The notes below the pieces were generated by a model, which did not search any database, was not told the origin of the DNA, and saw only the letters and a list, made by a program, of their open reading frames with translations. From contig JAOPXK010000039.1 in the NCBI GenBank assembly GCA_025965195.1, positions 1 to 40,376 on the forward strand: a DNA stretch of 40,376 nucleotides, read 5' to 3'. This document shows positions 5,008-37,701 of the stretch, in pieces. Made by a program: the position numbers and the translations under genes. This DNA comes from Marmoricola sp. (GTDB taxonomy: Bacteria; Actinomycetota; Actinomycetes; Propionibacteriales; Nocardioidaceae). Every line of letters begins with the position of its first letter. Positions within the stretch are counted from its first letter, which is position 1.

Positions 5008-6015
5008 ATGAGCCACTCGAATCCGGACATTGCGGCAAGCTTCGAAGGCGCCCGGGGCATGCGCCGGGTTGCGATCTTGGTCTACGACCAGGTGAAACTT
5101 CTCGACGTCGCCGGACCAGCGGAAGTATTCGCGGAGGCGAATCGGCTTGGGGCGTCCTATGAGATCGTGCTCATTTCACCCAATGGTGACGACGTGCTCT
5201 CGTCGCTCGGCATTCGACTCTCGGTCGGCGGGGCGCCCGGGAGCGGGCTCAAGTGGGACACATTCCTCGTCGCTGGTGGCGATGTCTATCCCACCGCTGC
5301 GATCGAGCGCGAACTGGTGGACGCGACGCGTGTCCTGGCTGACGGCGCCCGCCGAGTCGGGTCGATCTGCACGGGCGCCTTCATCCTGGCTGCTGCCGGG
5401 TTGCTCGAGGGCCGCCGCGCGACAACCCATTGGAAGGTCGCGCACAAGCTGGCGTCGCGACATCCGACGACCCGCGTTGAGCCGGACTCGATCTATGTCC
5501 GTGATGGAAACACCTACACCTCGGCCGGGGTGAGCGCGGGGATCGATCTTGCACTCGCGCTCGTCGAGGAGGACCACGGTCCCGACCTGACTCGGGAGGT
5601 TGCGCGCCGGCTCGTGGTGTATCTGCAGCGCCCAGGAGGGCAGTCACAGTTCTCGGCACCGATGCAGTCGCCGCCCCCACGAACTCCGGCACTTCGTAGC
5701 ATCGTCGAGCGGGTGACCGCTGATCCGACCGGCGATCATTCTCTGCACACTCTCGCCGTACAGCTCAACCTCAGTCCCCGCCACCTGACCAGGCTGTTTC
5801 GCACCGAAATGTCGACGACGCCAGCGCGGTACGTCGAACTGATCCGGTTTGACTTGGCCAAGGCGCTGCTCGACCAGGGGCACAATGCGACGCAGGCAGC
5901 TGCGCTTGCCGGATTCCCGAGCTACGAGAGCATGCGCAGGGTCTTCGTTCGTGAAGTGGATCTATCTCCGGCCGCGTACCAGCGGCGATTCGCGACCGCC
6001 CGATCACAGGGGTGA
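5008..6015 (+). CDS. GlxA-type AraC family transcriptional regulator (DJ-1/PfpI plus HTH)
   Basis: 335 aa with two domains. Residues about 18-190 are a DJ-1/PfpI-like domain (RRVAILVYDQVKLLDVAGPAEVF, VGSICTGAFILAAAGLLEGRRATTHW), carrying the nucleophile-elbow cysteine in SICTGA. Residues about 225-325 are the AraC/XylS DNA-binding domain with two helix-turn-helix motifs (LAVQLNLSPRHLTRLFRTEM and AAALAGFPSYESMRRVF). In this family the PfpI-like part is generally a sensor rather than a protease. Two starts are possible: the ATG at 5008 used here, and an ATG at 5059, which has a GAAGG upstream and gives a family-typical N-terminus. It is divergent from the HD/AhpD operon and probably regulates it. 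Confidence 0.9.
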   Translation: MSHSNPDIAASFEGARGMRRVAILVYDQVKLLDVAGPAEVFAEANRLGASYEIVLISPNGDDVLSSLGIRLSVGGAPGSGLKWDTFLVAGGDVYPTAAIERELVDATRVLADGARRVGSICTGAFILAAAGLLEGRRATTHWKVAHKLASRHPTTRVEPDSIYVRDGNTYTSAGVSAGIDLALALVEEDHGPDLTREVARRLVVYLQRPGGQSQFSAPMQSPPPRTPALRSIVERVTADPTGDHSLHTLAVQLNLSPRHLTRLFRTEMSTTPARYVELIRFDLAKALLDQGHNATQAAALAGFPSYESMRRVFVREVDLSPAAYQRRFATARSQG

Positions 6016-6162
6016 CTGGGTCGTATCGAAGATCCGATCCGATAGGTCAAACCGGAGGCCTGCCCTCCCGGCATTGTTTCGCGGACGATCCGATCCAGGT
6101 CATCGAACGACTGCTCGTCGTTTCTGATGGCTTTGTGATGACGCGATCAAGTCTGTAAACCT

Positions 6163-6201: not shown

Positions 6202-6275
6202 TAGCGGGGGCAGGATTTGAACCTGCGACCTCTGGGTTATGAGCCCAGCGAGCTACCGAGCTGCTCCACCCCGCG
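6202..6275 (-). tRNA. tRNA-fMet (CAU), initiator
   Basis: 74 nt, without an encoded CCA. The acceptor stem starts CGCGGGG, and the anticodon arm reads CTGGGCTCATAACCCAG with anticodon CAT. The three consecutive G-C pairs at the base of the anticodon stem (GGG/CCC) and the unpaired C1/U72 mark it as the initiator rather than an elongator tRNA-Met. The T-arm is GCAGG-TTCAAAT-CCTGC. The C1/U72 mismatch is, from memory, the form found in other actinobacteria. Confidence 0.96.
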
Positions 6276-10966: not shown

Positions 10967-11326
10967 CTACGCGGTGCGACGGGTGCTCGGCCGAGAAGCG
11001 CCACCGGGATCTGTCGGGTTGCCCGGAGGATCGCCCAGGGGTTTGCGCGGGGGGCCGCCCAGAGGGTTGCGCGGGGGGTTGCGCGGGGGGTTGCCTGCCG
11101 GGTTGCTCCGTGACGGGCGTACGGCGATGCCGGTGCTCCGGTCGCGGGTGGTGGTGCGGGTGCGCACCGACCCGGGGTGCTCGCGCAGGATCGCCGCGGC
11201 GAACCGCTCCTGAGCGGCCTCGTCGCGCTCGACGCCCTCCGGGCGGGCACGACCGATCCAGCTCACCCAGATCATCGCGACCAGCGTCACGAGCGCGGGC
11301 GGCACCAGCCAGAACAGGATCTCCAC
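10967..11326 (-). CDS. Small membrane protein with Pro-rich tetrapeptide repeat tail
   Basis: 119 aa. Residues about 2-24 form one hydrophobic helix (EILFWLVPPALVTLVAMIW), followed by a charged region (RPEGVERDEAAQERFAAAI). The tail is low complexity: NP-P/L-R/G units such as NPPRNPPRNPLGGPPRKPLG. The tail is encoded by near-identical 12-bp repeats, so its length may vary between strains. I do not recognise a family. The GTG at 11324-11326 is preferred because the hydrophobic segment starts right after it; longer frames lack plausible sequence. It heads the minus-strand operon with the PDZ-Lon protease 26 bp downstream, so it could be an accessory or regulator of that protease, which is inference only. 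Confidence 0.66.
   Translation of the reverse strand: MEILFWLVPPALVTLVAMIWVSWIGRARPEGVERDEAAQERFAAAILREHPGSVRTRTTTRDRSTGIAVRPSRSNPAGNPPRNPPRNPLGGPPRKPLGDPPGNPTDPGGASRPSTRRTA
11064..11095 (-). repeat. 12-bp tandem repeat inside a coding tail
   Basis: GGGTTGCGCGGG occurs twice in tandem (11064-11075, 11076-11087) and a third time partially (11088-11095), with diverged units on either side. It keeps the reading frame and encodes Asn-Pro-Pro-Arg. This is a minisatellite-like array likely to change length by slippage. Confidence 0.7.
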
Positions 11327-14561: not shown

Positions 14562-15593
14562 TCAGCGGTTGGCCCAGCCGAGGAGCTTGTCGAGGGGCCA
14601 GGTGTTCACGATCCGGTCGGGATCCAGGCCGAGCTCCTCGGCGCGCTCGCAGCCGTAGACCTGGAAGTCGAGCTGGCCGGGCGCGTGCGCGTCGCTGTCG
14701 ATCGAGAACAGGCAGCCCAGGTCGATGGCCAGCTGCAGGAGTTTCGTCGGAGGGTCACGTCGCTCGGGCCGGGCGTTGATCTCGACGGCGGTGTTGTTGT
14801 CGCGGCAGGCCTCGAAGACGGCCTTGGCATCGAAGTTCGACTGCCCCCGCTGGCCGCGGTTGCCGGTCACGAGCCGGCCGGTGCAGTGTCCGAGCACGTT
14901 GGTGAACGGGTTCTGCGCGGCCGCGACCATCCGCTTGGTCATCGGCTCGCGGTCCATCGCGAGCTTGGAGTGCACCGACGCAACGCGTACGTCGAGCCGG
15001 GCCAGCATCTCGTCGGTCTGGTCGAGCGAACCGTCGTCGAGGATGTCGACCTCGATCCCCCGGAGCAGCCGGAACGACCCTTGCAGGTGCTCATTCACGG
15101 CCTCGACCACCAGGAGCTGCTTCTTGAGCCGCTCGACCGACAGTCCGTTGGCGACCGTGAGGCGCGGTGAGTGGTCGGTGAGCACCAGGTAGTCGTGGCC
15201 GAGCTCGATCGCAGTGAACGCCATCTCCTCGATCGGCGAACCACCATCCGACCAGTCGCTGTGGGAGTGCAGATCACCCTTCAGTGCCTCGCGAATTTTC
15301 GTGCCGCCGCTGACGAGCGGACCGCCGACGTCCTTCTCAAGCATGGCCAGCCGGTCCGGCGTACGACCTTCGACGGCGGCCTCGATCACCTCCGCGGTCG
15401 ACGCACCGATCCCGGGCAGCTCACGCAGGGTGCCTCCGTCGACCCGCTGGGCGAGGTCGTCCGGGTCGATCGGCAGGATCGTCGCCGCGGCCGCCCGGAA
15501 CGCCTTGACCTTGTAGGTCTCCGCGCGCGATCGCTCCAGCAAGAAGGCGATTCGGCGTAGCGCGGCGACCGGGCCAGCGTCGTACTCACTCAT
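14562..15593 (-). CDS. PolX-like helix-hairpin-helix and PHP domain phosphoesterase
   Basis: 343 aa. Residues about 8-80 resemble the N-terminal HhH domain of bacterial PolX (RIAFLLERSRAETYKVKAFR, then LRELPGIGASTAEVIEAA). The PHP domain follows directly: DLHSHSDWSDGG, LVLTDHSPRL, GIEVDILDDG, VASVHSKL, LGHCTGR, EINARPERRDPP and SIDSDAHAPGQLD carry all the metal ligands. The central polymerase domain of PolX is absent. Predicted to be a metal-dependent phosphoesterase or exonuclease acting at DNA ends; this is inference from PolX. The ATG at 15593 overlaps by eight bases the end of a small upstream frame. Five DnaA-box-like sites lie 174-237 bp upstream of the start. Confidence 0.87.
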   Translation of the reverse strand: MSEYDAGPVAALRRIAFLLERSRAETYKVKAFRAAAATILPIDPDDLAQRVDGGTLRELPGIGASTAEVIEAAVEGRTPDRLAMLEKDVGGPLVSGGTKIREALKGDLHSHSDWSDGGSPIEEMAFTAIELGHDYLVLTDHSPRLTVANGLSVERLKKQLLVVEAVNEHLQGSFRLLRGIEVDILDDGSLDQTDEMLARLDVRVASVHSKLAMDREPMTKRMVAAAQNPFTNVLGHCTGRLVTGNRGQRGQSNFDAKAVFEACRDNNTAVEINARPERRDPPTKLLQLAIDLGCLFSIDSDAHAPGQLDFQVYGCERAEELGLDPDRIVNTWPLDKLLGWANR

Positions 15594-15762
15594 GAGGGCC
15601 AGTCTCCCCGGTGTTCGGGCCCGGCGCCACGAGCCGCTGGATGATCGCCGCTCGGGGCTCGTCGTGCTGCGGATCCAGGGCGTACGCCGGAGGGCGCCCG
15701 TTCTCACCTCGCGGAGCGCCGCCGATTCGGTCCGTGCGCCATTCGCGCGAGTGGTCGCTCAT
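15586..15762 (-). CDS. Small 58-aa protein upstream of the PHP gene, possible HIT-protein remnant
   Basis: Starts MSDHSREWRTDRIGGAPRGEN at 15762 and ends eight bases inside the PHP gene, so it would be coupled to it. The first 20 residues resemble the start of actinobacterial HIT-family diadenosine tetraphosphate hydrolases, in which a motif like WRxDRIGxALRGEN is common. The rest (Pro- and Arg-rich, AAIIQRLVAPG) does not match that family, and the HIT catalytic histidines are absent. It could be a stump of a deleted HIT gene, a coupling leader peptide, or chance. The similarity is recalled, not searched. Confidence 0.42.
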   Translation of the reverse strand: MSDHSREWRTDRIGGAPRGENGRPPAYALDPQHDEPRAAIIQRLVAPGPNTGETGPHE

Positions 15763-15766
15763 CACG

Positions 15767-15830
15767 TCGTCCACACGTGATCCACAGCCAGAACCTCGTC
15801 TTCCACAAGTTGTCCACAGGGTTTTCCACA
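15767..15830. promoter_or_regulatory. Cluster of five DnaA-box-like 9-mers
   Basis: TCGTCCACA (15767), TGATCCACA (15778), TCTTCCACA (15799), TTGTCCACA (15810) and TTTTCCACA (15822) all point the same way, with start spacings of 11, 21, 11 and 12 bp, that is one or two helix turns. TTGTCCACA equals the actinobacterial DnaA-box consensus. No dnaA or dnaN gene is present, so this is not the usual oriC context. It lies just upstream of the small frame and the PHP gene on the minus strand. Confidence 0.6.
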
Positions 15831-15859
15831 GGCGGTGGAGAAACCGCCCAAACTGCGCA

Positions 15860-15976: not shown

Positions 15977-15995
15977 TCCTGTCCCGTGTGCCGGA

Positions 15996-16083
15996 GTTTT
16001 CCCACGGTATGAACCCATCCCTCCTCTTCGCACATGTCACGACGTGTGCGATGTGCCGGTTTGGGTTCATAGCCTGTGAAAAC
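15996..16083. repeat. 88-bp palindromic repeat, copy 1
   Basis: Begins GTTTTCCCACGGTATGA and ends AGCCTGTGAAAAC. It aligns without gaps to 31128-31215, with 72 of 88 positions the same. The stem ATGAACCCA/TGGGTTCAT (9 bp) and the central TCGCACA/TGTGCGA (7 bp) pair. Outside the 88 bp, CCGGA and TCCGG extend the outer stem in this copy. It lies 12 bp past the stop of the enoyl-CoA hydratase gene (minus strand) and may end that transcript. Confidence 0.85.
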
Positions 16084-16095
16084 TCCGGCCGCACC

Positions 16096-16902
16096 TCAGA
16101 CGCCGCGGAAGACCGCCGGCCGCTTCCCGCGCGCAGCGGCGATGCCCTCTTGGAGATCGGCCGTGGCCAGCGTGATCGGCTGGGCCAGCGCCTCCCACTG
16201 CACGCAGCTCTCGAAGTCCTTGTGACCGCCGTCACGGAGCGCGACCTTCGTGTAACGGCTGGCGATCGGCGCCGTCGCCGCGATTCCCGTCGCGATCTCG
16301 AGCACCTCCTCGCGGAACGACTCGTCGGGGAAGACCCGCGTGACCAGGCCGAGCTCGCGCGCCTCGGCCGCATCGACGGTGCGACCGGTGAGCAGCAGTT
16401 CGCGGGCGTTGGCCTCGCCGACGGCGTTGGGCAACAGGTACGTCGCAGCCATGCCCGGGTTCATCCCGAGCTTGACGAACGGCGCGCCGAGCTTGGCCCC
16501 TGCGGCGGCGTACCGGATGTCACAGGCCAGCGCGAGGCAGAGGCCGGCGCCGATCGCGTGCCCGTTGACGGCGGCAATCGTCGGCACCTCGAGCCGGCGG
16601 ATCGACAGCCAGCCGCGGTAGAACGCCATCATCCGGGTGCGCAGGTGGTCGACCGTTGCGTCGGGCTCGCTGGCGATCCAGCCGGTGTTGCCGCCCGACG
16701 TGAACGCCGTGCCCTCACCGGTCACCACGACGACGCGAAGATCGCGGTCCGCGGCAAGCGAATCGATCGCGCGCACCCACGACTCGGTCATCTCGTCGGA
16801 CATCACGTTGCGCCGCGACGGGTCGTCGAGGGTGAGCACGGCGACCCCGTCGGAGGGTCGTTCGAGACGCAGGAAGGCAAATTCGGTGGCTGAGTCAGAC
16901 AT
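16096..16902 (-). CDS. Enoyl-CoA hydratase/isomerase family protein
   Basis: 268 aa crotonase fold. Motifs are VAVLTLDDPSRRNVMSDEM, VVVVTGEGTAFTSGGN (first oxyanion-hole segment), VPTIAAVNGHAIGAGLCLALACDIRYAA (second oxyanion-hole segment, GAG) and FVKLGMNPGMAATYLLPNAVG. In the last one the position of the usual catalytic glutamate (PE in true hydratases) reads NPG, so the reaction may differ from simple enoyl hydration; the family also includes isomerases and thioesterases. The ATG at 16902 has a TAATCT box 7 bp upstream, consistent with leaderless transcription; a much longer open frame upstream is not protein-like. The 88-bp repeat follows its stop. Confidence 0.9.
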   Translation of the reverse strand: MSDSATEFAFLRLERPSDGVAVLTLDDPSRRNVMSDEMTESWVRAIDSLAADRDLRVVVVTGEGTAFTSGGNTGWIASEPDATVDHLRTRMMAFYRGWLSIRRLEVPTIAAVNGHAIGAGLCLALACDIRYAAAGAKLGAPFVKLGMNPGMAATYLLPNAVGEANARELLLTGRTVDAAEARELGLVTRVFPDESFREEVLEIATGIAATAPIASRYTKVALRDGGHKDFESCVQWEALAQPITLATADLQEGIAAARGKRPAVFRGV

Positions 16903-22678: not shown

Positions 22679-24727
22679 TCAGCACAGGATTTCCAGCACG
22701 TCATCGGCGTATTTCTCGAGTTTTGCTGCGCCGATCCCGTTGATCATCAGCAAGCCGCGCCGGTCCTGCGGACGGACCTCGGCGATGGCTTCCAGGGTCG
22801 CGTCGGAGAACACCACGAACGCCGGAACGCTCTCGGAGTCGGCGCGCAGCTTGCGCCACGCCTTGAGCGACTCGAACAGCTCCTCGTCATAGGGCACCGG
22901 ACAGTCCGCACAGTAGCCGCGGTTGCGCTCACGCGAGCTGGCCAGCGGCGCCTGGCACTGCTTGCAGACGATCGCCTTTCGGGACCTGCGTTTCGTCGGC
23001 CCACGTGAATCGGCCCGATCGGTCGCCGACTCGGGTCGGAGCCCGGCGAGGAACCTCGACGGCTTGCGGCGGGCCTGCCCACCGGGCGTGCGGGCCAGCG
23101 ACCAGGAGATCCAGAGGTGGGTGCGGGCCCGGGTGATACCGACGTAGAGCAACCTGCGCTCCTCCTCGACGGCGGCAGGGGTGTCGGCGTAGGTGATCGG
23201 CATCGAACCCTCCTGCATCCCGCACAGGAAGACCGCATCCCACTCGAGACCCTTCGCGGCGTGCAGCGTGGCGAGCGTGACGCCCTCCGCGACGGGAGCG
23301 TGCTGCTCGTGCGCACGCCGGTCGAGCTCGGCGACGAAGCCCTCGAGAGTGGGCGCGAGCTCGTGCTCGACGTACTCCTCAGCCTGGGAGACGAGTGCGT
23401 GCAGCGACTCCCAGCGGTCCCGGGCCTGGCCGCGCGCGCCCGGCGCCTCCCTGGACCAGCCCATCCCGCCCAGGACACCGGTGACCTGGTCGACGAGGCC
23501 ATCGCGAGCAGCCTCACCGGCACGCAGGTTGCCACGCAGCAGCGCGAGGGCCTGACGAACCTCGGCGCGGTCGAAGAACCGGGCGGCACCACGGATGACA
23601 TAGGCGATGTTGCGGCTGGCGAGCGCCTCCTCGAAGGTCTGGGACTGGGCGTTGATCCGGAACAGCACCGCCATCTCGCGCAGCGGTGTGCCGGCGTCGC
23701 GCAGCCGGGCGATCTCGATGGCGGCTGCCTCGGCCTCGGCAACCTCGTCGGTGGCCTCGCGGTAGCTGACCTCGGCGCCACCTCCGCGCTGCGCCCGGAG
23801 CTCGACGCTGTTGGTGGCCGCGCCCTTGAGCAACCCGTTCGCCGCCGCGATCACCTGGGGCGTCGAGCGGTAGTTGCGGGTCAGCTCGACGCTGGTGGTG
23901 TGGTCGAACTTGCGCGGGAAGTCGGTGAGGTACGCCGCGCGGGCACCGGCGAAGGAGTAGATCGTCTGGGCCGGGTCTCCGACCACACAGATCTCGTTGC
24001 GCCCGCCCAGCCACAGGTCGAGCAGCGCCGACTGGATCGGGCTGACGTCCTGGAACTCGTCGACGACGAACCACTTGTACTGCCGACGCACCTCGGCAGC
24101 GACCCGCTCGTCCTCGCTCAGGAGCGCGGCACCACAGAGGAGCACGTCCTCCATGTCCATCCGGCCCTGGTCGCGCTTGACCTCCTCGTAGGACGCGAAG
24201 ATCCGCGACACCATCGCGTGGTCGAGCCCGTTGACCTCGCGGCCCCGGGTCGGAGCGATGCGCTCGTAGTCGTCGGGCCGGACGTTGCTCACCTTGGACC
24301 ACTCGATCTCGCTGGCCAGGTCGCGCAGCCTGGCCTGGTCGACCTCGACCCGGTTGCGACGGGCCGCGTTGGCGATGAACGGGATCTTCGACTCGGTCAG
24401 TTGGGGCGGCTCGCCGCCGTAGACCCGGGGCCAGAAGTAACGGACCTGCCTCAGCGCTGCGGAGTGAAACGTCCGCGCCTGTACGCCGGCAGCCCCGAGC
24501 GTGCGGAGCCGGCCGCGCATCTCGCCAGCGGCACGCGTGGTGAACGTGACGGCGAGGACCTCGGACGGGTTGTAGACGCCCGTGGCGACGCCGTACGCGA
24601 TCCGGTGGGTGATCGCCCGGGTCTTGCCGGTGCCCGCCCCCGCCAGCACCCTGACGGGACCGCGCAGCGCCTCGGCGACGGCTCGCTGCTCAGGATCGAG
24701 CGCGTTGAGCAGGTCGTCGGCGCGCAT
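22679..24727 (-). CDS. uvrD2: ATP-dependent DNA helicase UvrD2
   Basis: 682 aa, superfamily 1A 3'-5' helicase. Motifs are Walker A AGAGTGKTRAI, LAVTFTTRAAGEMRGRL (Ia), VVDEFQDVSPIQ (II), VVGDPAQTIYSF (III), LTRNYRS (IV), TLHAAKGLEWDAVFL (V) and VGITRARTHLW (VI). Beyond the motor are four cysteines (CKQC, CADC), as in mycobacterial UvrD2, and a C-terminal HRDC domain from about 600 (LKAWRKLRADSESVPAFVVF). UvrD2 unwinds DNA in repair and is essential in mycobacteria. The ATG at 24725-24727 has GGTGGGAG upstream. It is divergent from the mycoredoxin gene and upstream of whiB7 on the same strand, but whiB7 has its own promoter. Confidence 0.94.
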   Translation of the reverse strand: MRADDLLNALDPEQRAVAEALRGPVRVLAGAGTGKTRAITHRIAYGVATGVYNPSEVLAVTFTTRAAGEMRGRLRTLGAAGVQARTFHSAALRQVRYFWPRVYGGEPPQLTESKIPFIANAARRNRVEVDQARLRDLASEIEWSKVSNVRPDDYERIAPTRGREVNGLDHAMVSRIFASYEEVKRDQGRMDMEDVLLCGAALLSEDERVAAEVRRQYKWFVVDEFQDVSPIQSALLDLWLGGRNEICVVGDPAQTIYSFAGARAAYLTDFPRKFDHTTSVELTRNYRSTPQVIAAANGLLKGAATNSVELRAQRGGGAEVSYREATDEVAEAEAAAIEIARLRDAGTPLREMAVLFRINAQSQTFEEALASRNIAYVIRGAARFFDRAEVRQALALLRGNLRAGEAARDGLVDQVTGVLGGMGWSREAPGARGQARDRWESLHALVSQAEEYVEHELAPTLEGFVAELDRRAHEQHAPVAEGVTLATLHAAKGLEWDAVFLCGMQEGSMPITYADTPAAVEEERRLLYVGITRARTHLWISWSLARTPGGQARRKPSRFLAGLRPESATDRADSRGPTKRRSRKAIVCKQCQAPLASSRERNRGYCADCPVPYDEELFESLKAWRKLRADSESVPAFVVFSDATLEAIAEVRPQDRRGLLMINGIGAAKLEKYADDVLEILC

Positions 24728-24795
24728 GGAATGAACTCCCACCTGAAGTGCGTTGGGCTGAAGAGGAAAGAGTAGACGCGAGAGGGGACAGCCTG

Positions 24796-25077
24796 ATGGC
24801 TGAGGCCGAGAGCAGCACCGAAACGAGCCAGGTCACTGGTCAGTTCATCATGTACACCACGCCGTGGTGTGGCTACTGCCACCGGCTGCAGGGCCAGCTC
24901 GAGCGCGAAGGCATCGCCTACGACGTGGTCGACATCGAGCAGGATCCCTTGGCTGCCGAGCTGGTGATGGCCGCGAACGGCGGGAACCAGACCGTTCCCA
25001 CGCTGGTGTACGTCGATGGCACCTCGCAGACCAACCCGTCCGTGGCTCAGGTCAAGGCCAAGCTCGCCGCGCTCTGA
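24796..25077 (+). CDS. mrx1: Mycoredoxin (glutaredoxin-like)
   Basis: 93 aa thioredoxin-fold protein. The active site is MYTTPWCGYCHRL with CGYC; later TVPTLVYVDG holds the cis-proline and NPSVAQVKAKL the C-terminal helix. In actinobacteria such proteins use mycothiol to reduce mixed disulfides and AhpE-type peroxidases. The ATG at 24796 has AGGGGAC upstream; homologues often start later (near MYTT), so the first 18 residues are variable. It is a single gene, 68 bp from the divergent uvrD2, the same arrangement as Rv3198A. Its stop is followed after three bases by the convergent acyltransferase gene. Confidence 0.9.
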   Translation: MAEAESSTETSQVTGQFIMYTTPWCGYCHRLQGQLEREGIAYDVVDIEQDPLAAELVMAANGGNQTVPTLVYVDGTSQTNPSVAQVKAKLAAL

Positions 25078-25080
25078 GGG

Positions 25081-25809
25081 TCAGTCGCGCTTCCGCCAGT
25101 GGTGCACAGCCACGCCCAGGCCGACGGCGGCAACACCGGCAGCGATCAGGCCCGGACGAGCCTTGAGTGACTTGTAGTCCTCGCTGATCACCGGCCAGAC
25201 CTCTTCGTTGATCAGCCGCCCGGCATCCTCGGGCGTGGCCTTCAGGTCGGCAACCGGGATGGGTTCACCGAACACGATCTGGACCCGCCGAGGCAGGTGA
25301 GTACGCCGCCTCTCGGTGCCGGTGATCGCGGTCGGCACGATCGGTGCACCACCCTCGATCGCGAGCCGGGCAGCCCCCTTCCTCGGCGTACCCAGCGCCT
25401 CGGGGTCACTCACCCGGGTCCCCTCCGGGAACAGCGCCAGGATGTCGCCGCGCCTCAGGATCTCGGCGCCCGTCTCGACCGCGAGCGCATCGGATCCACC
25501 CCGCTTCACGGGAAACCCACCGAGTGACACGAGCAGCCGGCCCTTCCTGCCCTCGAAGAGCTCCGACTTGCCCATGTAGAAGATCCGCCGCTTGACGACC
25601 GCCGAGATGAAGAACGAGTCCCAGAAGCTCTTGTGGTTCGGCGCGATCACGACGGCACCCGTCTTCGGGATGTTCTCCAGACCCTCGACCCGCATCAGGA
25701 AGAGAAACCGGAACAGTGGGAGCAGGAACAGACGGAAGAGGCGGTAGGGCACCGGGCTGGTGCCCTCCCGGGCGAGCTCGTGCGCCTCTTCGTTGGTCAT
25801 TTTCGGCAT
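25081..25809 (-). CDS. PlsC-like 1-acylglycerol-3-phosphate acyltransferase
   Basis: 242 aa. The acyltransferase motifs are VVIAPNHKSFWDSFFI (NHxxxxD), YMGKSELFEGRKG, VETGAEILRRGDILALFPEGTR (the FPEGTR phosphate-binding motif) and GGAPIVPTAITG. A hydrophobic stretch near residue 25 and a C-terminal one (GLIAAGVAAVGLGVAVHHW) suggest membrane association. Such enzymes add the second acyl chain to lysophosphatidate, or act on related glycerolipids. Start taken at the ATG 25807-25809; another ATG is three codons in. It is transcribed convergently with the mycoredoxin gene and follows nudC by 76 bp on the same strand, possibly in one operon with nudC and the M3 peptidase. Confidence 0.88.
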   Translation of the reverse strand: MPKMTNEEAHELAREGTSPVPYRLFRLFLLPLFRFLFLMRVEGLENIPKTGAVVIAPNHKSFWDSFFISAVVKRRIFYMGKSELFEGRKGRLLVSLGGFPVKRGGSDALAVETGAEILRRGDILALFPEGTRVSDPEALGTPRKGAARLAIEGGAPIVPTAITGTERRRTHLPRRVQIVFGEPIPVADLKATPEDAGRLINEEVWPVISEDYKSLKARPGLIAAGVAAVGLGVAVHHWRKRD

Positions 25810-25885
25810 GGATGCAGAGTGGCGGCAGTCGGCCCGGTAGTCCAGCACAGCCGGGGTCGCGACTGGGCTCGACCAACCGCCCCGG

Positions 25886-26758
25886 TTACCAGCTGCCGGG
25901 CAGGGTCTCGCCGTACCAGTGATCGATCAGTGACCTGCTGATGGAGATGCCGCCGGGCATGATCAGCGAGCCGTCCTCGGCGCCCTTGATCGCCTCGTCG
26001 TGGCTGAACCAGCGGGCATCCTCGATCTCGTCACCGTCGACGGTGATCTCGAGCGAGTCGGCGTGCGCGATGAACCCGAGCATCAGCGAGGCGGGCATCG
26101 GCCACGGCTGGGAGCCGAAGTACTCGACCTCCCCGATGCGGACGCCGACCTCCTCGGCCACCTCACGGCGGACGGCGTTCTCGATCGACTCCCCCGGCTC
26201 GACGAATCCGGCGAGCGTCGACCAGCGGCCCTGGGGCCAGGCCCTCTGCCGGCCGAGCAGCACCCGGTTGTCGGCGTCGACGACCAGCATGATCACGGCG
26301 GGGTCGCTGCGCGGGAACTGCTCGCGCTGGCAGTTCACGCACTTGAGCACATGCCCCGCCTGCCGAGGCTCGAGCGAGCCGCCGCACCGCGGACAGTGCC
26401 GGACGGCCCAGTGCCACTCGGCGATCCCGATGGCGTGCACGGCGTACGCCGCGTCGGACGGGTCCACACTCGGCACGACGGCCCGAAGCCCGACCCAGGA
26501 CTCGTCGGCCTCCTCGGCGCCGGTGATGACCGCGAAGGACACGACTCCGTCGGCCTCGCCGAGGAGGATCCGGGTGCCGTCCGGGGCTTCGGATGGTGTC
26601 ACCCACTCGAGCTTGCCCTCGGGTGCCCGAAGCCGGGTGCCGGCGATCACGAGGACGCGCGTCGACGTTGCCGCCCAGGCCGCCGCGAGCCAGCCATCAT
26701 CCTTGCGGTGTACGGCGATCCGGTCGTAGGACTGGTCGCCCAGGGCAATGCGGGTCAT
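25886..26758 (-). CDS. nudC: NAD+ diphosphatase (NADH pyrophosphatase) NudC
   Basis: 290 aa. The N-terminal domain is followed by a zinc ribbon (HCPRCGGSLEPRQAG, LKCVNCQREQFPRSDPAVI) and the NUDIX domain: GFVEPGESIENAVRREVAEEVGV, then the NudC-specific SQPWPMPASLMLGF. It splits NAD(H) to NMN(H) and AMP and can remove NAD caps from RNA. The ATG at 26758 overlaps the stop of the M3 peptidase gene (ATGA), favouring it over one four codons upstream. It is therefore the second gene of the M3-nudC pair. In M. tuberculosis nudC (Rv3199c) also follows the mycoredoxin gene. Confidence 0.94.
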   Translation of the reverse strand: MTRIALGDQSYDRIAVHRKDDGWLAAAWAATSTRVLVIAGTRLRAPEGKLEWVTPSEAPDGTRILLGEADGVVSFAVITGAEEADESWVGLRAVVPSVDPSDAAYAVHAIGIAEWHWAVRHCPRCGGSLEPRQAGHVLKCVNCQREQFPRSDPAVIMLVVDADNRVLLGRQRAWPQGRWSTLAGFVEPGESIENAVRREVAEEVGVRIGEVEYFGSQPWPMPASLMLGFIAHADSLEITVDGDEIEDARWFSHDEAIKGAEDGSLIMPGGISISRSLIDHWYGETLPGSW

Positions 26759-28677
26759 CGTTCGAGCCATGCCTTGAAGGCCTCCGAGTTGTAGGGCCGG
26801 CCGAGGAAGTCCTCGACCAGGTCGGCAGCGTCCTTCGAGCCGCCGGGTGTCAGCACCAGGTCGCGGTAGCGCTGCGCGACCTCACTGGCGAACAGGTCGC
26901 CCGGGTCGAATGCGGAGAACAGGTCCTTCGCGATCACGTTGCTCCAGGCATAGGTGTAGTACGCGCTGGTGTAGCCCTCGAGGTGCCCGAACGAGCAGTG
27001 GAAGTGGGTGCCCTCGATCGGCTTGATCAGGCTGTACTCGGCGGACAGCTCGGACACCCGTTTCGTGAGGTCGTCGGGCAGCTCCAGGTGCAGCCGGTAG
27101 GCCACCGATGCATAGAACATCTGCGTGCGTGCGAGATAGCCCTTGCCGAACTCGTCCGCCGCCCGCATCTTCTCGACCAGCTCGGCCGGGATCGGAGTCC
27201 CCGCCTCGTCGGTCGCAAACGTCTGCAGCACCTCGGCGTCCCACGCCCACTCCTCGAGCATCTGGGACGGCGCCTCGACGAAGTCCCACTCCGTCGCGAC
27301 ACCCGAGAAGCGCACCCATTCGTGGCGCCCGGCGAGCGTGTGGTGCATCAGGTGGCCGAACTCGTGGAAGAGCGTGACGACCTGGTCGTGTTCCATCAGC
27401 CCGCGCGGGAAGTTGCAGACCAGCACGCCCTCGGGCAGCTGCCGCTGACGTACGCCGGGGACCAGGTCGAACTGCGCCGCGTGGTTGAACTTCCGCTCGC
27501 GAGGATGCAGGTCGAGGTGGATCCGGCCGAGGACCGTGGTTCCGGCCGGGCCAGCCAGCGACACGTCGTACGACGTCACGTCCTGATGCCAGGTCGGCGC
27601 GTCGACCTCGGTGTAGGTCAGCCCGAAGAGCCGGCCGGTGACATCGAGCAGTCCCTGCCGGACCTTGGCGAAGTCGAAGTACTTCCGGACCTCCTGGGCA
27701 TCGACCTCGAACTGCTCGCGACGGACCAGCTCGGCCAGGTAGCGCCAGTTGGAGACATCCACCGCCTCGGTCGCCGGGTCATCGCGCCGAGCCCGGTTGA
27801 GGAGTACGTCGAGATCGCGGCGGCCGGTTGCCTCCGAGTCGACAGCGATCTGGTCGATGAAGGCGCCGATCGCGTCTCCTCGCTCGATCATCTTGACCTC
27901 GGCGTCGTAGTCCGGCCAGTTCGGATAGCCGAGCAGCCGGGCCTTCTCGTCGCGCAGGGTCAGCAGCTCGCCGAGCACCTTGTCGTTGTCCGGCCACGCC
28001 ACGTTGAGGAAGGTCGTGAACAGCTGCCGCCGGGCGGCATCGTCGCGGGAGAACGTCATGAACGGTTGCAGGTCGGGGTACTCCGTGCTGATCTCGACCA
28101 TCCCGTCGTCGCCGGCCGGGTGGCTCTCGACGAAGTCGGCGGGCAGCCCGTCGAGAGCGTCCGCCGGCACCTTCGTCGTACGTCGTCCGTCGCGGATGCC
28201 ACGCGAGAAGTCCTGCCCGAGCTCGGTCAGCCGTTCGTCCAGCTCACGCAGTCGTTCGCGGGCGGGGTCGTCCCGGTCCACCCCGGCCCGGCGAAATGAC
28301 CGCAGCGCATCGACCAGGACCCGCCTCGCGCCGTCGTCGAGGGCAGCCTGGTCGAGGGAGGAGAGCTGGGCGAAGACCTCGGTGTCGAGCATCAGGTCGG
28401 TCCGGAAGCTGTTCGCCTCCACCTCGAGGGCCTCGGCGAGCTCGATCACCTCGGCGGCCGGATGCACCTCGGAGAACAGCGAGGCCACCGCGAACGCGTT
28501 GGCAAGGCCGATGCCGGCGTCGTTCCAGAGCTGGAGGATCGCGGTGTCCCCCGGAGGTGCAGTCTTGAGGGAGGCGATCTGGTCGGCGGTCAGCCGCAGC
28601 TGGTCTCGGCCCCGCGACCTGAGCCACTCTGCCCAATCGGTGTCGCGTTCAGGCAGCGGCAAGGTCACCAGTGTCAT
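26755..28677 (-). CDS. M3 family metallopeptidase (oligopeptidase)
   Basis: 640 aa, thimet oligopeptidase/Dcp type. The zinc site is LFHEFGHLMHHTL (HExxH), followed by the glutamate in EAPSQMLEEWAW, then YTSAYYTYAWSNVIAKDLFSAF and the C-terminal GRPYNSEAF typical of the family. These cytosolic enzymes degrade short peptides inside a closed channel. The ATG at 28675-28677 has a TAATGT box 7 bp upstream and no Shine-Dalgarno sequence, consistent with a leaderless transcript. It is first in an operon with nudC (overlap), a pair recalled as common in Nocardioides. It is divergent from the DUF2156 gene by about 50 bp. Confidence 0.93.
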   Translation of the reverse strand: MTLVTLPLPERDTDWAEWLRSRGRDQLRLTADQIASLKTAPPGDTAILQLWNDAGIGLANAFAVASLFSEVHPAAEVIELAEALEVEANSFRTDLMLDTEVFAQLSSLDQAALDDGARRVLVDALRSFRRAGVDRDDPARERLRELDERLTELGQDFSRGIRDGRRTTKVPADALDGLPADFVESHPAGDDGMVEISTEYPDLQPFMTFSRDDAARRQLFTTFLNVAWPDNDKVLGELLTLRDEKARLLGYPNWPDYDAEVKMIERGDAIGAFIDQIAVDSEATGRRDLDVLLNRARRDDPATEAVDVSNWRYLAELVRREQFEVDAQEVRKYFDFAKVRQGLLDVTGRLFGLTYTEVDAPTWHQDVTSYDVSLAGPAGTTVLGRIHLDLHPRERKFNHAAQFDLVPGVRQRQLPEGVLVCNFPRGLMEHDQVVTLFHEFGHLMHHTLAGRHEWVRFSGVATEWDFVEAPSQMLEEWAWDAEVLQTFATDEAGTPIPAELVEKMRAADEFGKGYLARTQMFYASVAYRLHLELPDDLTKRVSELSAEYSLIKPIEGTHFHCSFGHLEGYTSAYYTYAWSNVIAKDLFSAFDPGDLFASEVAQRYRDLVLTPGGSKDAADLVEDFLGRPYNSEAFKAWLER

Positions 28678-28728
28678 GTTCGCGACATTAGTCCTGACCT
28701 CTGAAGCCGCTGTAGAAGGGTGCCCCAC

Positions 28729-30408: not shown

Positions 30409-30418
30409 CGTGCTGCCC

Positions 30419-31126
30419 ATGAGCACCCACATCGGCGCTGCTGCCGGCCAGATCGCTCCGACCGTGCTGCTGCCAGGAGATCCGTTGCGAGCCCGCTGGA
30501 TCGCTTCGACGTACCTCTCCGACGTGAGCTGCTACTCCGAGGTCCGCGGGATGTACGGCTTCACCGGCACCTGGCAGGGGCACCCGGTGTCGGTCCAGGG
30601 CTCCGGGATGGGTCAGCCGTCGATGTCGATCTATGTCAACGAGCTCTTCAAGGAGTACGACGTAGAGCAGATCGTGCGTGTCGGATCGTGTGGCGCGCTG
30701 ACGACCGACGTGGCCATCCGCGACATCGTGATCGCCTCGGGAGCGTGCACCGACTCCTCGATGAACAAGCTCCGCTTCCATGGGCTCGACTATGCGCCGG
30801 TGGCCGACTTCGGGCTGCTCCGTCGCGCGTTCGATGCCGCGGCCGCGCTTCCGGACGCCCGGGCGCACGTCGGGCTGATCTTCTCCGGCGACTCGTTCTA
30901 CTCACCCCGCCCGGAGCTGCTCAAGCCGCTCGTCGACCACGGCGTGCTCGCGGTCGAGATGGAGGCCAGCGCGCTCTACACGCTGGCCGCGTCGTACAAG
31001 CGGAAGGCGCTGGCGATCTGCACCGTCTCCGACCACATCGTCACCGGCGAGGAGACCACCGCCGCCGAACGGGAGCAGACCTTCGGCACGATGGTCGAGA
31101 TCGCGCTCGGGGCTGCGTTGGGTTGA
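30419..31126 (+). CDS. deoD: Purine-nucleoside phosphorylase, DeoD type
   Basis: 235 aa, the length of hexameric DeoD. Motifs are [14 protein letters not shown] (phosphate site), [25 protein letters not shown], the ribose/base site [12 protein letters not shown] and [11 protein letters not shown], with the catalytic aspartate in SDH. It phosphorolyses purine nucleosides to base and ribose-1-phosphate. The ATG is ten bases after the preceding stop, and a TAGCGT box that contains that TAG stop lies 7 bp upstream, so a leaderless internal start is likely as well as read-through. The 88-bp palindromic repeat begins one base after its stop. Confidence 0.94.
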
Positions 31127-31127
31127 C

Positions 31128-31215
31128 GTTTTCCCACGGTATGAGGTCAAACCTCCTCATCGCACATGTCATGACCTGTGCGAAGAGGAGGTTTGACCTC
31201 ACAGCCTGTGAAAAC
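31128..31215. repeat. 88-bp palindromic repeat, copy 2
   Basis: Begins GTTTTCCCACGGTATGA and ends AGCCTGTGAAAAC, as does copy 1 (15996-16083). Here the stem is longer: 17 bp (TGAGGTCAAACCTCCTC with its complement), an A/A mismatch, and TCGCACA/TGTGCGA around a ten-base loop. It lies between the convergent deoD (stop at 31126) and adnB (stop at 31235), where it could end both transcripts. Confidence 0.88.
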
Positions 31216-31234
31216 GCCGCCGCCGCCGCCGAGC

Positions 31235-34200
31235 TCACCGAAGCAGGGACTCGAGCTCCTCGCGGTCGGACAGGTCCGTGGGCTCGATGAGCTCGCCGGT
31301 CCGGACGTAGAAGAACGCGGCGCGCACCTTCGCAAGGGGCACCCGGTTGAGCTCGGCCCAGGCCAGCCGGTAGAGCGCGAGCTGGAGGGGGTCGGCGGTC
31401 TGTTGCTGGTTGGTCTTCCAGTCGATGAGCAGGAACCCGTCGGGTTCGGCGTACACCGCGTCGATCCGGCCGCGGACGACCTGGCCGGCCAGGACGAGCG
31501 CGAACGCGGGCTCGACGGCGATCGGGACCCGATCGGCGAACGGGCCCGCTTCGAAGCGGGCGATCAGCTCCGCCAGGTCGGCCTCGTCGTCGATGCCGAC
31601 ATCGGCGCGGCCGGGGAGCTCGTCGGGGTCGATCAGCTGCTGTTGGCCGAAGCGGGCCTCCACCCAGGCATGGAACCGGGTCCCGAAGCGGGCCGACGGT
31701 GACGGCTGGCGCGGCATCGGCCGTGCGAGGTCGCGGGCGAACGCCCCGGCGTCATCGCGCAGCCGGGCGAGGGAGGTCGCGGACAAGCTGCTCGGAAGAG
31801 GTACGGCGATGGCGCCCGACCGATCCGCCCTCGCCTCGGCCAGCAGCCGTTCCATCTCGGTGTCCCAGTCGTTGACCTTCGCAAGCAGCTCGAGGTCGAG
31901 ACCGTCCTCGGCGAGCGGCTTGCCGGCCTCCCGGGCAGTGATGGCCTCCCTAACGATCGCTGCCGACGCGACCCTCAGCTCGGCCTCCCGCGTCGGCCCG
32001 ACCGGCGGCCAGGGTTTCGTCATGTCCTTGCCAGCAAAGGGATTCGGTGTCTTCGGAGGCGGCAGCTCGAGCCATGATGCCGGCTTCTCACCCCACTCCT
32101 CGATCACCTCACGGACCACGGTCTGGTACGCCGAAGCGCCGTAGGGCGTCTTCCGTGCCGCCCAGAGGTAGGACGAGACGGACAGCTGATGCTTGGCCCG
32201 GGTGAAGGCGACATAGCCGAGCCGCAGCTCCTCGGACTTGTCGTGGTCCTTGGTCTCGGCGCGAAACAGGTCGAGGGCTGCCTTGTCGTAGCCGCTGTGC
32301 AGCTGGGCGAGGTCGCGCGCATCACCACGGAGTGGGGACGGCAGCACCGCAGGGCTCGAGGTCCACAACGTCCGCGACCGGTTCGTCGGGAACCTCGTCT
32401 CGCACACCCCGACCAAGAAGACGGCGTCCCACTCGAGGCCCTTGGCGCGATGGACGGTGAGCAGCTTGACCGAGTCGGCCTCGGTCGGCGTCGCCACGTC
32501 GAGACCGGTGCCGAGCTCGTCCTCCGCGCTGAGATAGGCCAGCAACGCCGGCAGGGTGACATCACCGTCGACCGCCTGGAACTCAGCGACGGCCTTGACG
32601 AACAGGTCGAGGTTGTCGCGCCGCGCTGCCGCGGCCGGGCTCACGGCCGAGGCGAGCTCGATGTCGATGCCGGTCGTGTCGATGATCCGACGGACCAGGT
32701 CGAGCAACGGTTCACCGGCGTACGCCCTCAGGAAGCGAAGCTCGCTCGAGAGCAACGCGAACCGCTCGCGCGCCTCGACCGAGTAGGCGCCGTCACCTGG
32801 ATCCTCGAGCGCATCGCAGAGCGAGGCGACCTCGATCGGGTCAGCGCCCTCGACGCTCTGCGCCAGCTCGGCTCGTACGTCGTCCGGCCGCTCGGGCCGA
32901 CCCGAGTTTCCGGCGATCTTTGCCGCCCGACGGCCGAGGATGGCCAGGTCGCGCGGACCGATCGCCCAGCGCGGCCCGGTCAGCACGGTCAGCAGCGAGG
33001 CGTTGGCGGTCAGGTCGTGCAGCAGCCGGAGCGTGGCGACGACCTCGGCAACCTCCGGCAGCCGCAACAGCCCCTGCAGGCCGACGATCTCGACGGGAAT
33101 TTCGTTGCGGGTAAGGGCATCGAAGACGTCAGCGGCGTGCGCGTTGTCGCGAGTGAGCACGCCGATGCCCGACCACTTCATCTCGCCGTGGGTCGCATGG
33201 GTCGCGATCACCTGGTCGGCGAGCCAGCCGAGCTCGTCATCGGCGTGCTCGTGCACGGAGACGACCACCGCGCCGTCATCGGCATTCGGCTTCGCCTGGA
33301 GCGGCTTGGCCTGCGGGGTCGCGTCGTACAACGGCTGCGCGAGCTGGTTGGCAACCGTGAGAATGCGCTCGTCTGAGCGGCGGTTCACCGTGAGCGGGTA
33401 CGTCGGAACGTCGGTCGAGCCGTCTGCCCGGGGGAAGTCCTCGCCGTAGTTGAGAATGTTGGAGACCGACGCGCCGCGCCAGCCGTAGATCGCCTGGTTG
33501 GGGTCGCCGACAGCGGTCACCGGATGCCCCCGGCCGGACTCGACGGAGTCGCCGGAGAACAGCAACCCGAGCATCTTCGCCTGGGCGACGGAGGTGTCCT
33601 GGTACTCGTCGAGCAGTACGACGGCGTACTTCTCGCGCTCCAGCCGTGACACCTCGGGCTGCTCGATCGCGAGTCGTGCGCCGAGTGCGATCTGGTCGGA
33701 GAAGTCCATCAGTCCGAGCTGGGCCTTGAGCCGGCGATAGGACTCGACCAGTCCGAGCAGCTCGGCCCGGCGGTCGATTGCCCCGATCGCCTTGAGCACC
33801 GGCTCGAGGTACGTCACCCGGCTCTCGCCGTCGAGCTCGGCGGCGAAGCGGGGACGGACTGTCGCGTCGAACGCACGAACATCGTCGGGAGTGACCAGGT
33901 GCTCACACATCGCACTGTCGAGGGAGAGCAGGTTCTGGATGACGGTCTCGGGATGGTCGGTGAGCTGCTCGATCCGGCCGGTGTAGCGATCCACCACCCG
34001 GGCGGCGAGCTGGTAGCGCGACGCGTCGGCAAGCACCCGGGTGTCGGGTTCGTGGCCGATCCGCAGGCCGTGCTCGGTGAGCAGCGAAGACGCATAGGCG
34101 TTGTACGTCGCCACCATCGGCTCGATCACATCGACCTCGTCGGGCGCGGGCGGACGGCCGGGCGCGGGCAGGATCCCGGCCGCGATCAGCGCCTCCCGGA

Positions 34201-34456
34201 TCCGCCGGCCGAGCTCGGAGGCGGCCTTGGTGGTGAACGTCAGGCCGAGCACCTGCCCGGGCTCGACCTGGCCGGTCGCGACGAGATAGACCACGCGGGC
34301 GGCCATCAGTGAGGTCTTGCCGGACCCGGCTCCGGCCACCACGACCGCGGGCTCGAGTGGCGCGGCGATCGCGGCCCACTGCTCGGCGCTGACCTCGTAT
34401 TCGGCCTGCATCACCTCGCGAAGGTCGGCCGGACTGCGGATCTCGAGACGGCTCAC
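31235..34456 (-). CDS. adnB: AdnB subunit of the AdnAB helicase-nuclease
   Basis: 1073 aa. N-terminal UvrD-type motor: VVVAGAGSGKTSLMAARV (Walker A), LGLTFTTKAASELGRRI, VVLLDEYQDTSVAQ, VGDPNQAIYGWRG, VNRRSDERI, VKLLTVHRAKGLEWDAVFL and VAFTRAKHQL. The C-terminal RecB-family nuclease shows FGTRFHAWVEARFG, RGRIDAVYAEPDGFLLIDWKT and QLALYRLAWAE. AdnAB resects double-strand breaks for recombination in actinobacteria. It starts with a GTG overlapping the adnA stop (GTGA), so the subunits are coupled. No iron-sulfur cysteine set is seen, as expected for AdnB. It is the downstream gene of the pair and ends beside the 88-bp repeat. Confidence 0.92.
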   Translation of the reverse strand: MSRLEIRSPADLREVMQAEYEVSAEQWAAIAAPLEPAVVVAGAGSGKTSLMAARVVYLVATGQVEPGQVLGLTFTTKAASELGRRIREALIAAGILPAPGRPPAPDEVDVIEPMVATYNAYASSLLTEHGLRIGHEPDTRVLADASRYQLAARVVDRYTGRIEQLTDHPETVIQNLLSLDSAMCEHLVTPDDVRAFDATVRPRFAAELDGESRVTYLEPVLKAIGAIDRRAELLGLVESYRRLKAQLGLMDFSDQIALGARLAIEQPEVSRLEREKYAVVLLDEYQDTSVAQAKMLGLLFSGDSVESGRGHPVTAVGDPNQAIYGWRGASVSNILNYGEDFPRADGSTDVPTYPLTVNRRSDERILTVANQLAQPLYDATPQAKPLQAKPNADDGAVVVSVHEHADDELGWLADQVIATHATHGEMKWSGIGVLTRDNAHAADVFDALTRNEIPVEIVGLQGLLRLPEVAEVVATLRLLHDLTANASLLTVLTGPRWAIGPRDLAILGRRAAKIAGNSGRPERPDDVRAELAQSVEGADPIEVASLCDALEDPGDGAYSVEARERFALLSSELRFLRAYAGEPLLDLVRRIIDTTGIDIELASAVSPAAAARRDNLDLFVKAVAEFQAVDGDVTLPALLAYLSAEDELGTGLDVATPTEADSVKLLTVHRAKGLEWDAVFLVGVCETRFPTNRSRTLWTSSPAVLPSPLRGDARDLAQLHSGYDKAALDLFRAETKDHDKSEELRLGYVAFTRAKHQLSVSSYLWAARKTPYGASAYQTVVREVIEEWGEKPASWLELPPPKTPNPFAGKDMTKPWPPVGPTREAELRVASAAIVREAITAREAGKPLAEDGLDLELLAKVNDWDTEMERLLAEARADRSGAIAVPLPSSLSATSLARLRDDAGAFARDLARPMPRQPSPSARFGTRFHAWVEARFGQQQLIDPDELPGRADVGIDDEADLAELIARFEAGPFADRVPIAVEPAFALVLAGQVVRGRIDAVYAEPDGFLLIDWKTNQQQTADPLQLALYRLAWAELNRVPLAKVRAAFFYVRTGELIEPTDLSDREELESLLR

Positions 34457-37400: not shown

Positions 37401-37701
37401 TGGTCGACATCGTCCGGCCGAGCCGCGCGGTCACCCGGTCGCGGAGCTGCTCGGCGGCCTTGCGGCTGAACGTCAACGCCAGCACGGATTCCGGGGACGC
37501 GCCACGATTCTCGATGCGGTCCACGATCGCCTCGACCAGGGTCGTCGTCTTGCCGGTGCCCGGCCCGGCAAGGACCAGCAACGGCCCGCCCCGGTGCTCG
37601 ATGACCGCCTGCTGGCTGGGGTCGAGTCGTGGGGCGGCAACCGGTTCGGCTCGCGTCCGCACCAGCTCGTACGTCGTCACCCCAGTGACCTGCCCCGTCA
37701 T
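34453..37701 (-). CDS. adnA: AdnA subunit of the AdnAB helicase-nuclease, with iron-sulfur nuclease domain
   Basis: 1082 aa. The motor has LLVLAGPGTGKTTTLVEAI, LALTFSRKAAEQLRDRV, VFVDEYQDTDPSQ, VVGDPDQSIYGFRG, LLTAHRSKGLEWRLVVV and VACTRARQRL. The C-terminal nuclease has LTCPTQWFLERE, LRGYADRIELDDEGRLVVVDLKTGK and QLGLYQYA, and ends in CRNCNFQAICPIKG: one early cysteine plus CxxCxxxxxC, the AddB-type 4Fe-4S set that in the mycobacterial enzyme belongs to AdnA. AdnA cuts the 5' strand. The ATG at 37701 is preferred to a much longer frame with no family similarity. It heads the operon. Confidence 0.92.
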   Translation of the reverse strand: MTGQVTGVTTYELVRTRAEPVAAPRLDPSQQAVIEHRGGPLLVLAGPGTGKTTTLVEAIVDRIENRGASPESVLALTFSRKAAEQLRDRVTARLGRTMSTNLSSTFHSFAYGLVRRYSPPELYAEPLRLLSAAEQDVVLQQLLTDAPESVRWPDGLRAAVGTRGFAREVQAVLARARERGLNGEALCQLGDQTDRPEFVAAGWFLEQYLNVLDQDSAIDYADLISRAAIEAETHRDELRAQYQHVFVDEYQDTDPSQVGLLRTLAGDGRNLVVVGDPDQSIYGFRGAEVRGILDFPSEFPQPDGSKAPVVALQTTRRFGPRILTAVSRIASSIGVAGAIDADTFHAFRRPEASSSAYGDGRVEVHTYDTARSETEHIADLLRRAHLEGDVGWSEMAVLVRSGRSSLPGLRRSLAGAGVPVEVASDDTPLVREPSVQPLLDAMRAVVNLDNDDPGHVDHLDPARAEALLLSPLAGLDAIEVRSLSRALRSREKARATEAAEPPRSSPALLREAVLHPEVLQGIDLSAAARVRALGTLLRDGRALLDAGATAEEVLWRLWAGTSWSAHLTRLVESGGGAARMAHRDLDAICALFEAAAKAEEQRGHTSVHNFLATLVAQEIPADTLAERGVRGDAVRLLTAHRSKGLEWRLVVVAHVQEEGWPDVRRRMSLLQADRLAHDELLPPVTVSAMLAEERRLFYVACTRARQRLIVTAVASPEDEGEQQSRFLAELGVTIEHQSGRPQRPLSLAGLVAEMRRTVTDPDQPEGLRAEAAARLAVLSQETVRGRALVPQADPASWWGTRAATRSEQPFREADAPLTMSASDLEALLTCPTQWFLEREAGGATRSNSSQGFGLIVHALADRISRGDLPADPEDIPAVMAYVDQVWDQITFRTPWARGREYAQISLALTRFVKWHLASRGRTEIGTEAKFSTEVELPDGQMVILRGYADRIELDDEGRLVVVDLKTGKYLPSGASLKEHVQLGLYQYAAQHGGFDDLVGRPVEPGGAELVQLRASTNEDAKVQRQEPQSPDDEGHLPIERQLMTAANAIRKERLVAIAGDHCRNCNFQAICPIKGAGTVFDQ

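Follow-up and report, generated by a model that had tools for sequence, protein, structure and literature searches.

Results

Short palindromes and a gene-bearing element with the same ends

The window analysed here, a 40,376-nucleotide stretch of Marmoricola sp. DNA (contig JAOPXK010000039.1), contains two 88-bp palindromes (Table 1) which are probably short, non-autonomous derivatives, similar to miniature inverted-repeat transposable elements (MITEs) and REPINs, of a ~1.23-kb element that carries a single gene between terminal inverted repeats. The decisive clue linking palindrome and gene is a split copy elsewhere in the same genome (C184), in which positions 1–68 of the 88-mer are followed by 1.1 kb of DNA and then by positions 21–88, giving an element of 1252 bp in total with one long open reading frame (ORF). 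Its anatomy is outer arm (20 nt), inner palindrome (48 nt), gene, inner palindrome, outer arm; without the gene and with one inner palindrome, the same plan gives the 88-mer (20+48+20). The 88-mer therefore appears to be the remainder after loss of the gene and one inner palindrome, that is, to derive from the gene-bearing element by internal deletion. Two sister genomes of the genus, G009 and G010, have a C184-like arrangement at one common site, behind a gene which on our own ORF reading is dihydrolipoamide dehydrogenase-like.

In the model of the protein encoded by this ORF, an AbiEi-antitoxin-like module (approximately residues 1–197) is fused to a nuclease fold (approximately residues 200–313) with invariant E/D/K residues. 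The N-terminal two-thirds give a fold match to AbiEi proteins (S. agalactiae AbiEi, 6y8q, and Rv2827c, 1zel), and the C-terminal part is predicted, likewise by fold match, to be a nuclease of the Vsr/EDxHD homing-endonuclease type (I-Bth0305I-like); the Vsr-type label is used because that match supports it, Pfam DUF559 finding no match in the aligned proteins. PADLOC AbiEi models match all 26 proteins of alignment A2 (26 of 30 loci, omitting L093, L098, L099 and L102, with stops in L098 and L099; two of 32 rows were without a locus), Pfam AbiEi_4 matches 25 of them, alongside six sporadic weak families, and none of the 26 matches a transposase model (Pfam; NCBIfam without a match at 0.01). A sequence search of solved structures returned four weak matches (E 0.41–0.63). 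A further alignment, A3, comprises 37 of 80 loci, hand-picked for spread, L129 having been dropped for a stop.

Copy number and location in the genome

The genome of the window (hereafter G000; 3.97 Mb in 200 contigs, 98% complete) holds at least 28 copies of the full 88 bp along with five partial ones, the latter amounting to three split elements (C184, C175 and C66), as found by a DNA search followed by a covariance model. Because the model was applied to 150 of the 1373 candidates from the first look, these counts are lower bounds. With so many copies in one genome the two palindromes of the window are not a chance occurrence, and the repeat family proposed in the preliminary description is confirmed genome-wide, together with its conserved ends and diverging inner arms, which hold over the 28 full copies. 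The window copies align without gaps over 88 columns at 82% identity, in agreement with the 72 of 88 matches reported earlier, and both are palindromic, as had also been stated: the arms are 87% complementary across 31127–31216 and 80% across 15990–16089, the palindromy of copy 1 extending into its flanks. The sequence GTTTTCNCA occurs four times in the window (0.30 expected), every time at the ends of the two palindromes.

The elements lie just behind stop codons, with a preference for convergent gene pairs. At 31 places in G000 the median distance to the adjoining stop codons is 15 bp, such distances being approximate with a home-made gene caller trained on the window; 14 of the places are convergent, 15 tandem and two divergent (p 0.0003 against a baseline of gaps of at least 20 bp in 400 kb taken from the window and from G009 and G010, with 33 convergent, 134 tandem and 52 divergent). 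None of the 31 lies inside a called gene, and two extend 17 bp into the end of a called gene. The MITE- or REP-like character and the gene 3′-end location suggested at the outset both stand. Other forms of the element measure 204 bp (in C175) and, in G009/G010, 139 and 108 bp; the right end of the gene element and the 108-bp forms have a 24-bp junction in common (one mismatch in G010). One site is occupied by 108 bp in G010 (L065 1507–1614) and by 88 bp in G009 (L074 1499–1586), with an apparent 20-bp tandem duplication of an inner arm.

Palindromes and gene across lineages

A search of the genus with model R1 (E 0.001, 113 candidates scored per genome) found the palindrome family in 7 of 24 genomes, G000 included. 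The four non-query genomes with a homologue of the protein at 53% identity or more are all among the six other palindrome-bearing genomes (p 0.0017, with a cut-off chosen post hoc). When two to six palindromes per genome (six of the 28 in G000, for example) were scored against the flanks of the genes, the palindromes of each lineage fitted those of one own-lineage gene best, in six genomes: the best own-gene scores were 47.3 in G000, 47–48 in G009 and G010 (whose palindromes also score 47–48 against each other's gene), 42.8 in G002, 36.5 in G017 and 35.5 in G020. Cross-scores between G000 and G009/G010 were 22–30, six other genes in palindrome-bearing genomes scored at most 20.7, and 14 genes from nine genomes without palindrome matches at most 18.5.

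Two more gene elements were tested as well. The end of the G010 element C1:299769 recurs at approximately 12 more places in G010, at two weak ones in G023 and at none in 22 others; that of a G003 element recurs at approximately eight more places in G003, nine in G010 (one of these being C1:299769 itself) and two in G009, and at none in 21 others. A match beyond the genus, L039 (44.5 bits, E 2.8e-7), is by eye a different palindrome and was not counted.

The ~1.23-kb elements in actinobacteria

In named actinobacterial genomes 550 relatives of the protein were found, of which the best 80 loci were used; 78 of these entered an inverted-repeat test (threshold score 20), two being skipped for short flanks. 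At 62 of the 78 loci the left flank forms inverted repeats with the right, compared with 2 of 147 shifted windows, and 55 loci score above 26, the 99% quantile of the cross-locus null. An earlier version of the test was passed by 29 of 37 loci, flanks at contig edges (L086, L102) being probably misplaced. As a control, one of 198 ordinary genes (600–1500 bp; from the window and pieces of G009 and G010) passed, and this gene is itself a member of the AbiEi-nuclease family. The 62 elements are uniform, with a median length of 1228 bp and inverted repeats of median 75.5 bp. Forty lie between convergent genes, 17 between tandem and two between divergent genes, with three at contig edges; the convergent share (40 of 59) exceeds the gap baseline given above (Fisher p 1e-14), and of 100 adjoining gene 3′ ends, 95 lie no more than 60 bp from an element.

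These data bear on whether the gene is instead a defence or toxin–antitoxin locus, an AbiE-type antitoxin/nuclease with its own operators and terminators for which the scattered palindromes serve as extra binding sites. The PADLOC matches to all 26 proteins would suit such a locus, and PMC7319586 describes AbiEi proteins as binding inverted repeats. However, one ORF fills the C184 element, which together with the uniform length leaves no room for a toxin gene inside, the protein has an extra nuclease domain, and the long inverted repeats stand at both ends and not on the promoter side alone; we consider this explanation very unlikely.

Pairing and covariation

The preliminary description had pointed to three pairs at which the window copies differ in both partners (18/71, A-T to G-C; 19/70, C-G to G-C; 20/69, C-G to T-A) and had read these as compensatory changes reflecting selection on folding. 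The differences are present in the sequence; the reading does not survive comparison with the other copies. With copies oriented to a common consensus, the three pairs are Watson–Crick in 10, 7 and 7 of the 28 full G000 copies, respectively; 17 copies lack all three pairs, six have all of them and five are intermediate, the window holding two copies of the fully paired kind. The statistical covariation test which had been proposed gives no excess within G000 (score over 42 pairs 0.061, shuffle mean 0.061, matched by 253 of 500 shuffles), and 15 of the 42 pairs are invariant among the 28 copies. Within-genome covariation is therefore ruled out as evidence for selection on an RNA. Positions 18–20 and 69–71 form the boundary between the 20-nt outer arm and the 48-nt inner palindrome; because 17 copies pair at none of these sites and six at all, with covariation at the level of shuffles, the three paired changes behave mostly as a single all-or-none block exchange at a module boundary. 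In the consensus folds of G000 and G020 these positions fall in an internal loop, offset by one in G009/G010; the consensus hairpin is predicted at −59.5 kcal/mol.

Between lineages the picture differs. A pool of 47 copies from five genomes (G000, G009, G010, G020 and G002; copies from G017 and G005, one 89-bp G020 copy and the 108–139-bp forms of G009/G010 were excluded here and from the consensus folds) gave a covariation score of 0.228, compared with 0.117 in shuffles (0 of 500), falling to at most 0.084 when slid. Two-sided change cells numbered 151, compared with 79 when shuffled (0 of 500); counted by pair the excess is less striking, 24 of the 42 pairs having a two-sided change against 20.0 (15 of 500). 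These results support palindromy being kept through change between lineages, with the proviso that the shuffles retain relatedness and the p values are not calibrated. Such pairing is compatible with a hairpin or with a DNA site recognised for its two-fold symmetry; taken alone, it does not speak for a functional RNA.

An alternative in which the palindromes are functional RNAs or bidirectional intrinsic terminators, selected for folding and spread by recombination without a dedicated enzyme, would account for the close stop codons, the 14 convergent places, the strong predicted hairpin, the pairing kept between lineages and the half of the listed G010 places that are common to G009 (below). 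It sits poorly with the lack of within-genome covariation and the invariant pairs, with matching repeats bounding one specific gene and with several places differing between sister genomes; an Rfam scan of the window at the curated threshold found a tRNA (6202–6275) only, the palindromes being unmatched. We judge this alternative unlikely, while terminator action as a side effect is compatible with derivation from the gene-bearing element.

Insertion traces and sister genomes

At the 31 places in G000 no excess of direct repeats indicative of target-site duplication was found relative to cross-locus pairs (offsets 0–6, lengths 2–9); the ends tend to be preceded by gga and followed by tcc. The idea that the elements insert into loops of hairpins already present was rejected, flank complementarity being not significantly higher than in cross-locus pairs (−1 to −3, p 0.08; −4 to −12, p 0.11).

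G009 and G010 are 86–98% identical in the compared flanks. Among the matches listed, 7 of 14 G010 places are common to G009 (four by eye), and at the other seven the family member is absent in G009; one of these seven sites holds, in G009, a different AbiEi-nuclease gene element of 1285 bp with 44-bp perfect inverted repeats. Conversely, 7 of 9 listed G009 places are common to G010, the other two holding different palindromes in G010.

Several further sequences were observed at such sites. The 1285-bp element (G009 L108 1504–2788) has terminal inverted repeats beginning CATGTAAATC, and its flanks are GC-rich and complementary-looking (GCGGGGCG/CGCCCCGC). Palindromes of additional families, whose ends are AGACGCGCGGACACAAGT and (GA)TAGTCCGAGACG, occupy, in G010, sites of the 88-bp type in G009 (L118 ~5961–6109, L208 ~5010–5082); a palindrome with the (GA)TAGTCCGAGACG end also adjoins an AbiEi-like gene in G000 (L052 2488–2553). 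At the site of the G010 element C1:299769, G009 has a segment (L205 6666–7935) with GGTTTCCCGAGGTCGCTCGGGAAACC-type palindromic ends. On inspection by eye this segment has no nuclease gene and carries two small ORFs resembling membrane proteins.

Comparison with known systems

The 88-bp family resembles REPIN/RAYT systems in consisting of extragenic hairpin inverted pairs with conserved ends and variable arms, present in many copies and linked to a chromosomal gene; PMC3116915 describes REPINs as gene-linked, extragenic inverted pairs with conserved ends and a variable hairpin spacer. It also resembles REPtrons, whose palindromes and protein, according to PMC8266576, change together across lineages, as the score matrix indicates here. 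These likenesses would suit a population of repetitive extragenic palindromic sequences (REPs or REPINs) mobilised by a REP-associated tyrosine transposase (RAYT, a Y1 HuH enzyme), with the gene element a mere passenger. However, the Y1 transposase model PF01797 is matched in none of the 24 genus genomes, G000 included (a control was matched in 5 of 14 genomes), and the palindromes follow the AbiEi-nuclease gene instead; such mobilisation is highly improbable. The linked protein further differs from RAYTs in being AbiEi-like with a predicted Vsr/EDxHD-type fold, and the 88-bp unit with its 20-48-20 plan is also distinct.

Like the MITEs of insertion sequences, the 88-mers look internally deleted, have terminal inverted repeats and no ORF, are numerous, and share ends with a gene-bearing parent (the C184, G009 and G010 elements; score matrix). 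MITEs derived in the ordinary way from a classical insertion sequence, now lost or residing in another strain, would have the same inverted-repeat ends, high copy number and lack of coding capacity, and a 98% complete draft, in which no scan for insertion-sequence transposases was made, could miss the parent. Against this, target duplication is absent at the 31 places, and no gene other than that of the AbiEi-nuclease protein was found flanked by such ends; its protein lacks a match to any transposase model, and the gene reappears, with cognate ends, in several lineages. We regard a classical parent as quite unlikely.

The element protein shares a predicted nuclease fold with Vsr-like EDxHD homing endonucleases such as I-Bth0305I, whereas its gene is free-standing between genes rather than intronic, has long palindromic inverted repeats and linked gene-less copies, and encodes an AbiEi-type module. 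Its first two-thirds have the same fold as AbiEi of AbiE type IV systems (6y8q, 1zel); unlike these it adds a nuclease domain, and its gene stands alone in an element bounded on either side by long inverted repeats. We describe the system as REPIN/MITE-like, with a protein of an unrelated, homing-endonuclease type, and place it in none of the above classes, because no Y1 enzyme, transposase model or duplication was seen. Among the matches listed, the open-access literature contained no description of such elements; PMC12915292 and PMC5526307 had no bearing on them.

Other features of the window

Table 1. Coordinates of the palindromes, their modules and the adjoining genes in the window.
Feature	Coordinates	Strand	Basis or remark
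Copy 1, 88-bp palindromic element (the subject of this study)	15996..16083		alignment, palindrome, model search
Copy 2, 88-bp palindromic element	31128..31215		alignment, palindrome, model search
Copy 1 left outer arm, positions 1–20, GTTTTCnCA end	15996..16015		module boundary inferred from split copies
Copy 1 inner palindrome, positions 21–68	16016..16063		flanks gene on both sides in gene-bearing element
Copy 1 right outer arm, positions 69–88	16064..16083		split copies, oriented copies
Copy 2 left outer arm	31128..31147		split copies, oriented copies
Copy 2 inner palindrome	31148..31195		split copies, oriented copies
Copy 2 right outer arm	31196..31215		split copies, oriented copies
Copy 1 positions 18–20, partners 16064–16066 (sites claimed to covary)	16013..16015		17 of 28 copies unpaired at all three
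Enoyl-CoA hydratase/isomerase gene	16096..16902	-	stop codon 12 bp from copy 1
Phosphorylase superfamily (PNP_UDP_1) gene	30410..31126	+	stop codon 1 bp from copy 2
UvrD-type helicase gene with PD-(D/E)XK domain, convergent	31235..34456	-	gene end 19 bp from copy 2

Adjoining copy 1, at 15760–15845, are multiple TCCACA-containing repeats (TTGTCCACAGGGTTTTCCACAGG), by eye DnaA-box-like, upstream of a PHP/HHH-domain gene (14562–15593). A tandem repeat of 12-bp period (GGGTTGCGCGGG type) lies within a called gene at 11016–11099. Three large called genes (22679–24727, 31235–34456 and 34453–37701) have repeats in common; the domain test covered the second of these, and we take the large genes of 22679–37701 to include, presumably, an AdnAB-like pair.

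Discussion

The shared ends, the co-divergence of palindromes and gene, and the predicted fold of the protein lead us to infer that the protein mobilises the palindromes. The AbiEi-like module would bind the inverted repeats at the ends of its own element, and the nuclease domain would nick or cut at element ends and/or at hairpins behind genes; repair or strand transfer would then copy the element itself as well as, in trans, the 88-mers. A protein would change in step with its palindromes, and a need for recognition of both arms would keep the palindromy. A possible bidirectional terminator effect on the flanking genes may render insertion behind genes harmless. On this basis we tentatively suggest, with somewhat more doubt than conviction, that the elements form a new class of mobile element, ~1.23 kb in length with one gene and palindromic ends, whose protein moves its own gene and the short palindromes to gene 3′ ends.

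Several observations weigh against derivation from a mobile gene-bearing element. The evidence for movement comes from genome comparison. Neither a target-site duplication in G000 nor, with intergenic flanks diverged, a clean empty site in G009/G010 was found, and the places common to the two sister genomes imply that turnover is not fast. The gene-bearing form has not multiplied into highly similar copies: two homologues within G000 are 51% alike. There is no sign of horizontal vehicles: phages gave no match and plasmids four weak ones (27–31% identity). Of the actinobacterial loci, 16 of 78 fall below the inverted-repeat threshold, and the cross-locus null is high (maximum 82), because related loci share ends. 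The calls of element-free genomes rest on 113 scored candidates each, and G005 (a draft, 92% complete) has palindromes, which score up to 33 against the gene of G010, and no homologue at E 1e-50.

The palindromes of the window provide a cautionary case, in that apparently ‘compensatory’ changes between two copies can stem from module exchange rather than from selection on an RNA. Movement of the kind proposed would give a concrete reason for hairpins behind genes differing between related species. If the proposal is correct, some of the actinobacterial proteins labelled as AbiEi antitoxins are mobility enzymes, serving a REPIN-like system that relies on an unrelated enzyme, and REPIN-like palindrome populations would have had an independent origin, with a homing-endonuclease-type nuclease in place of the HuH transposase.
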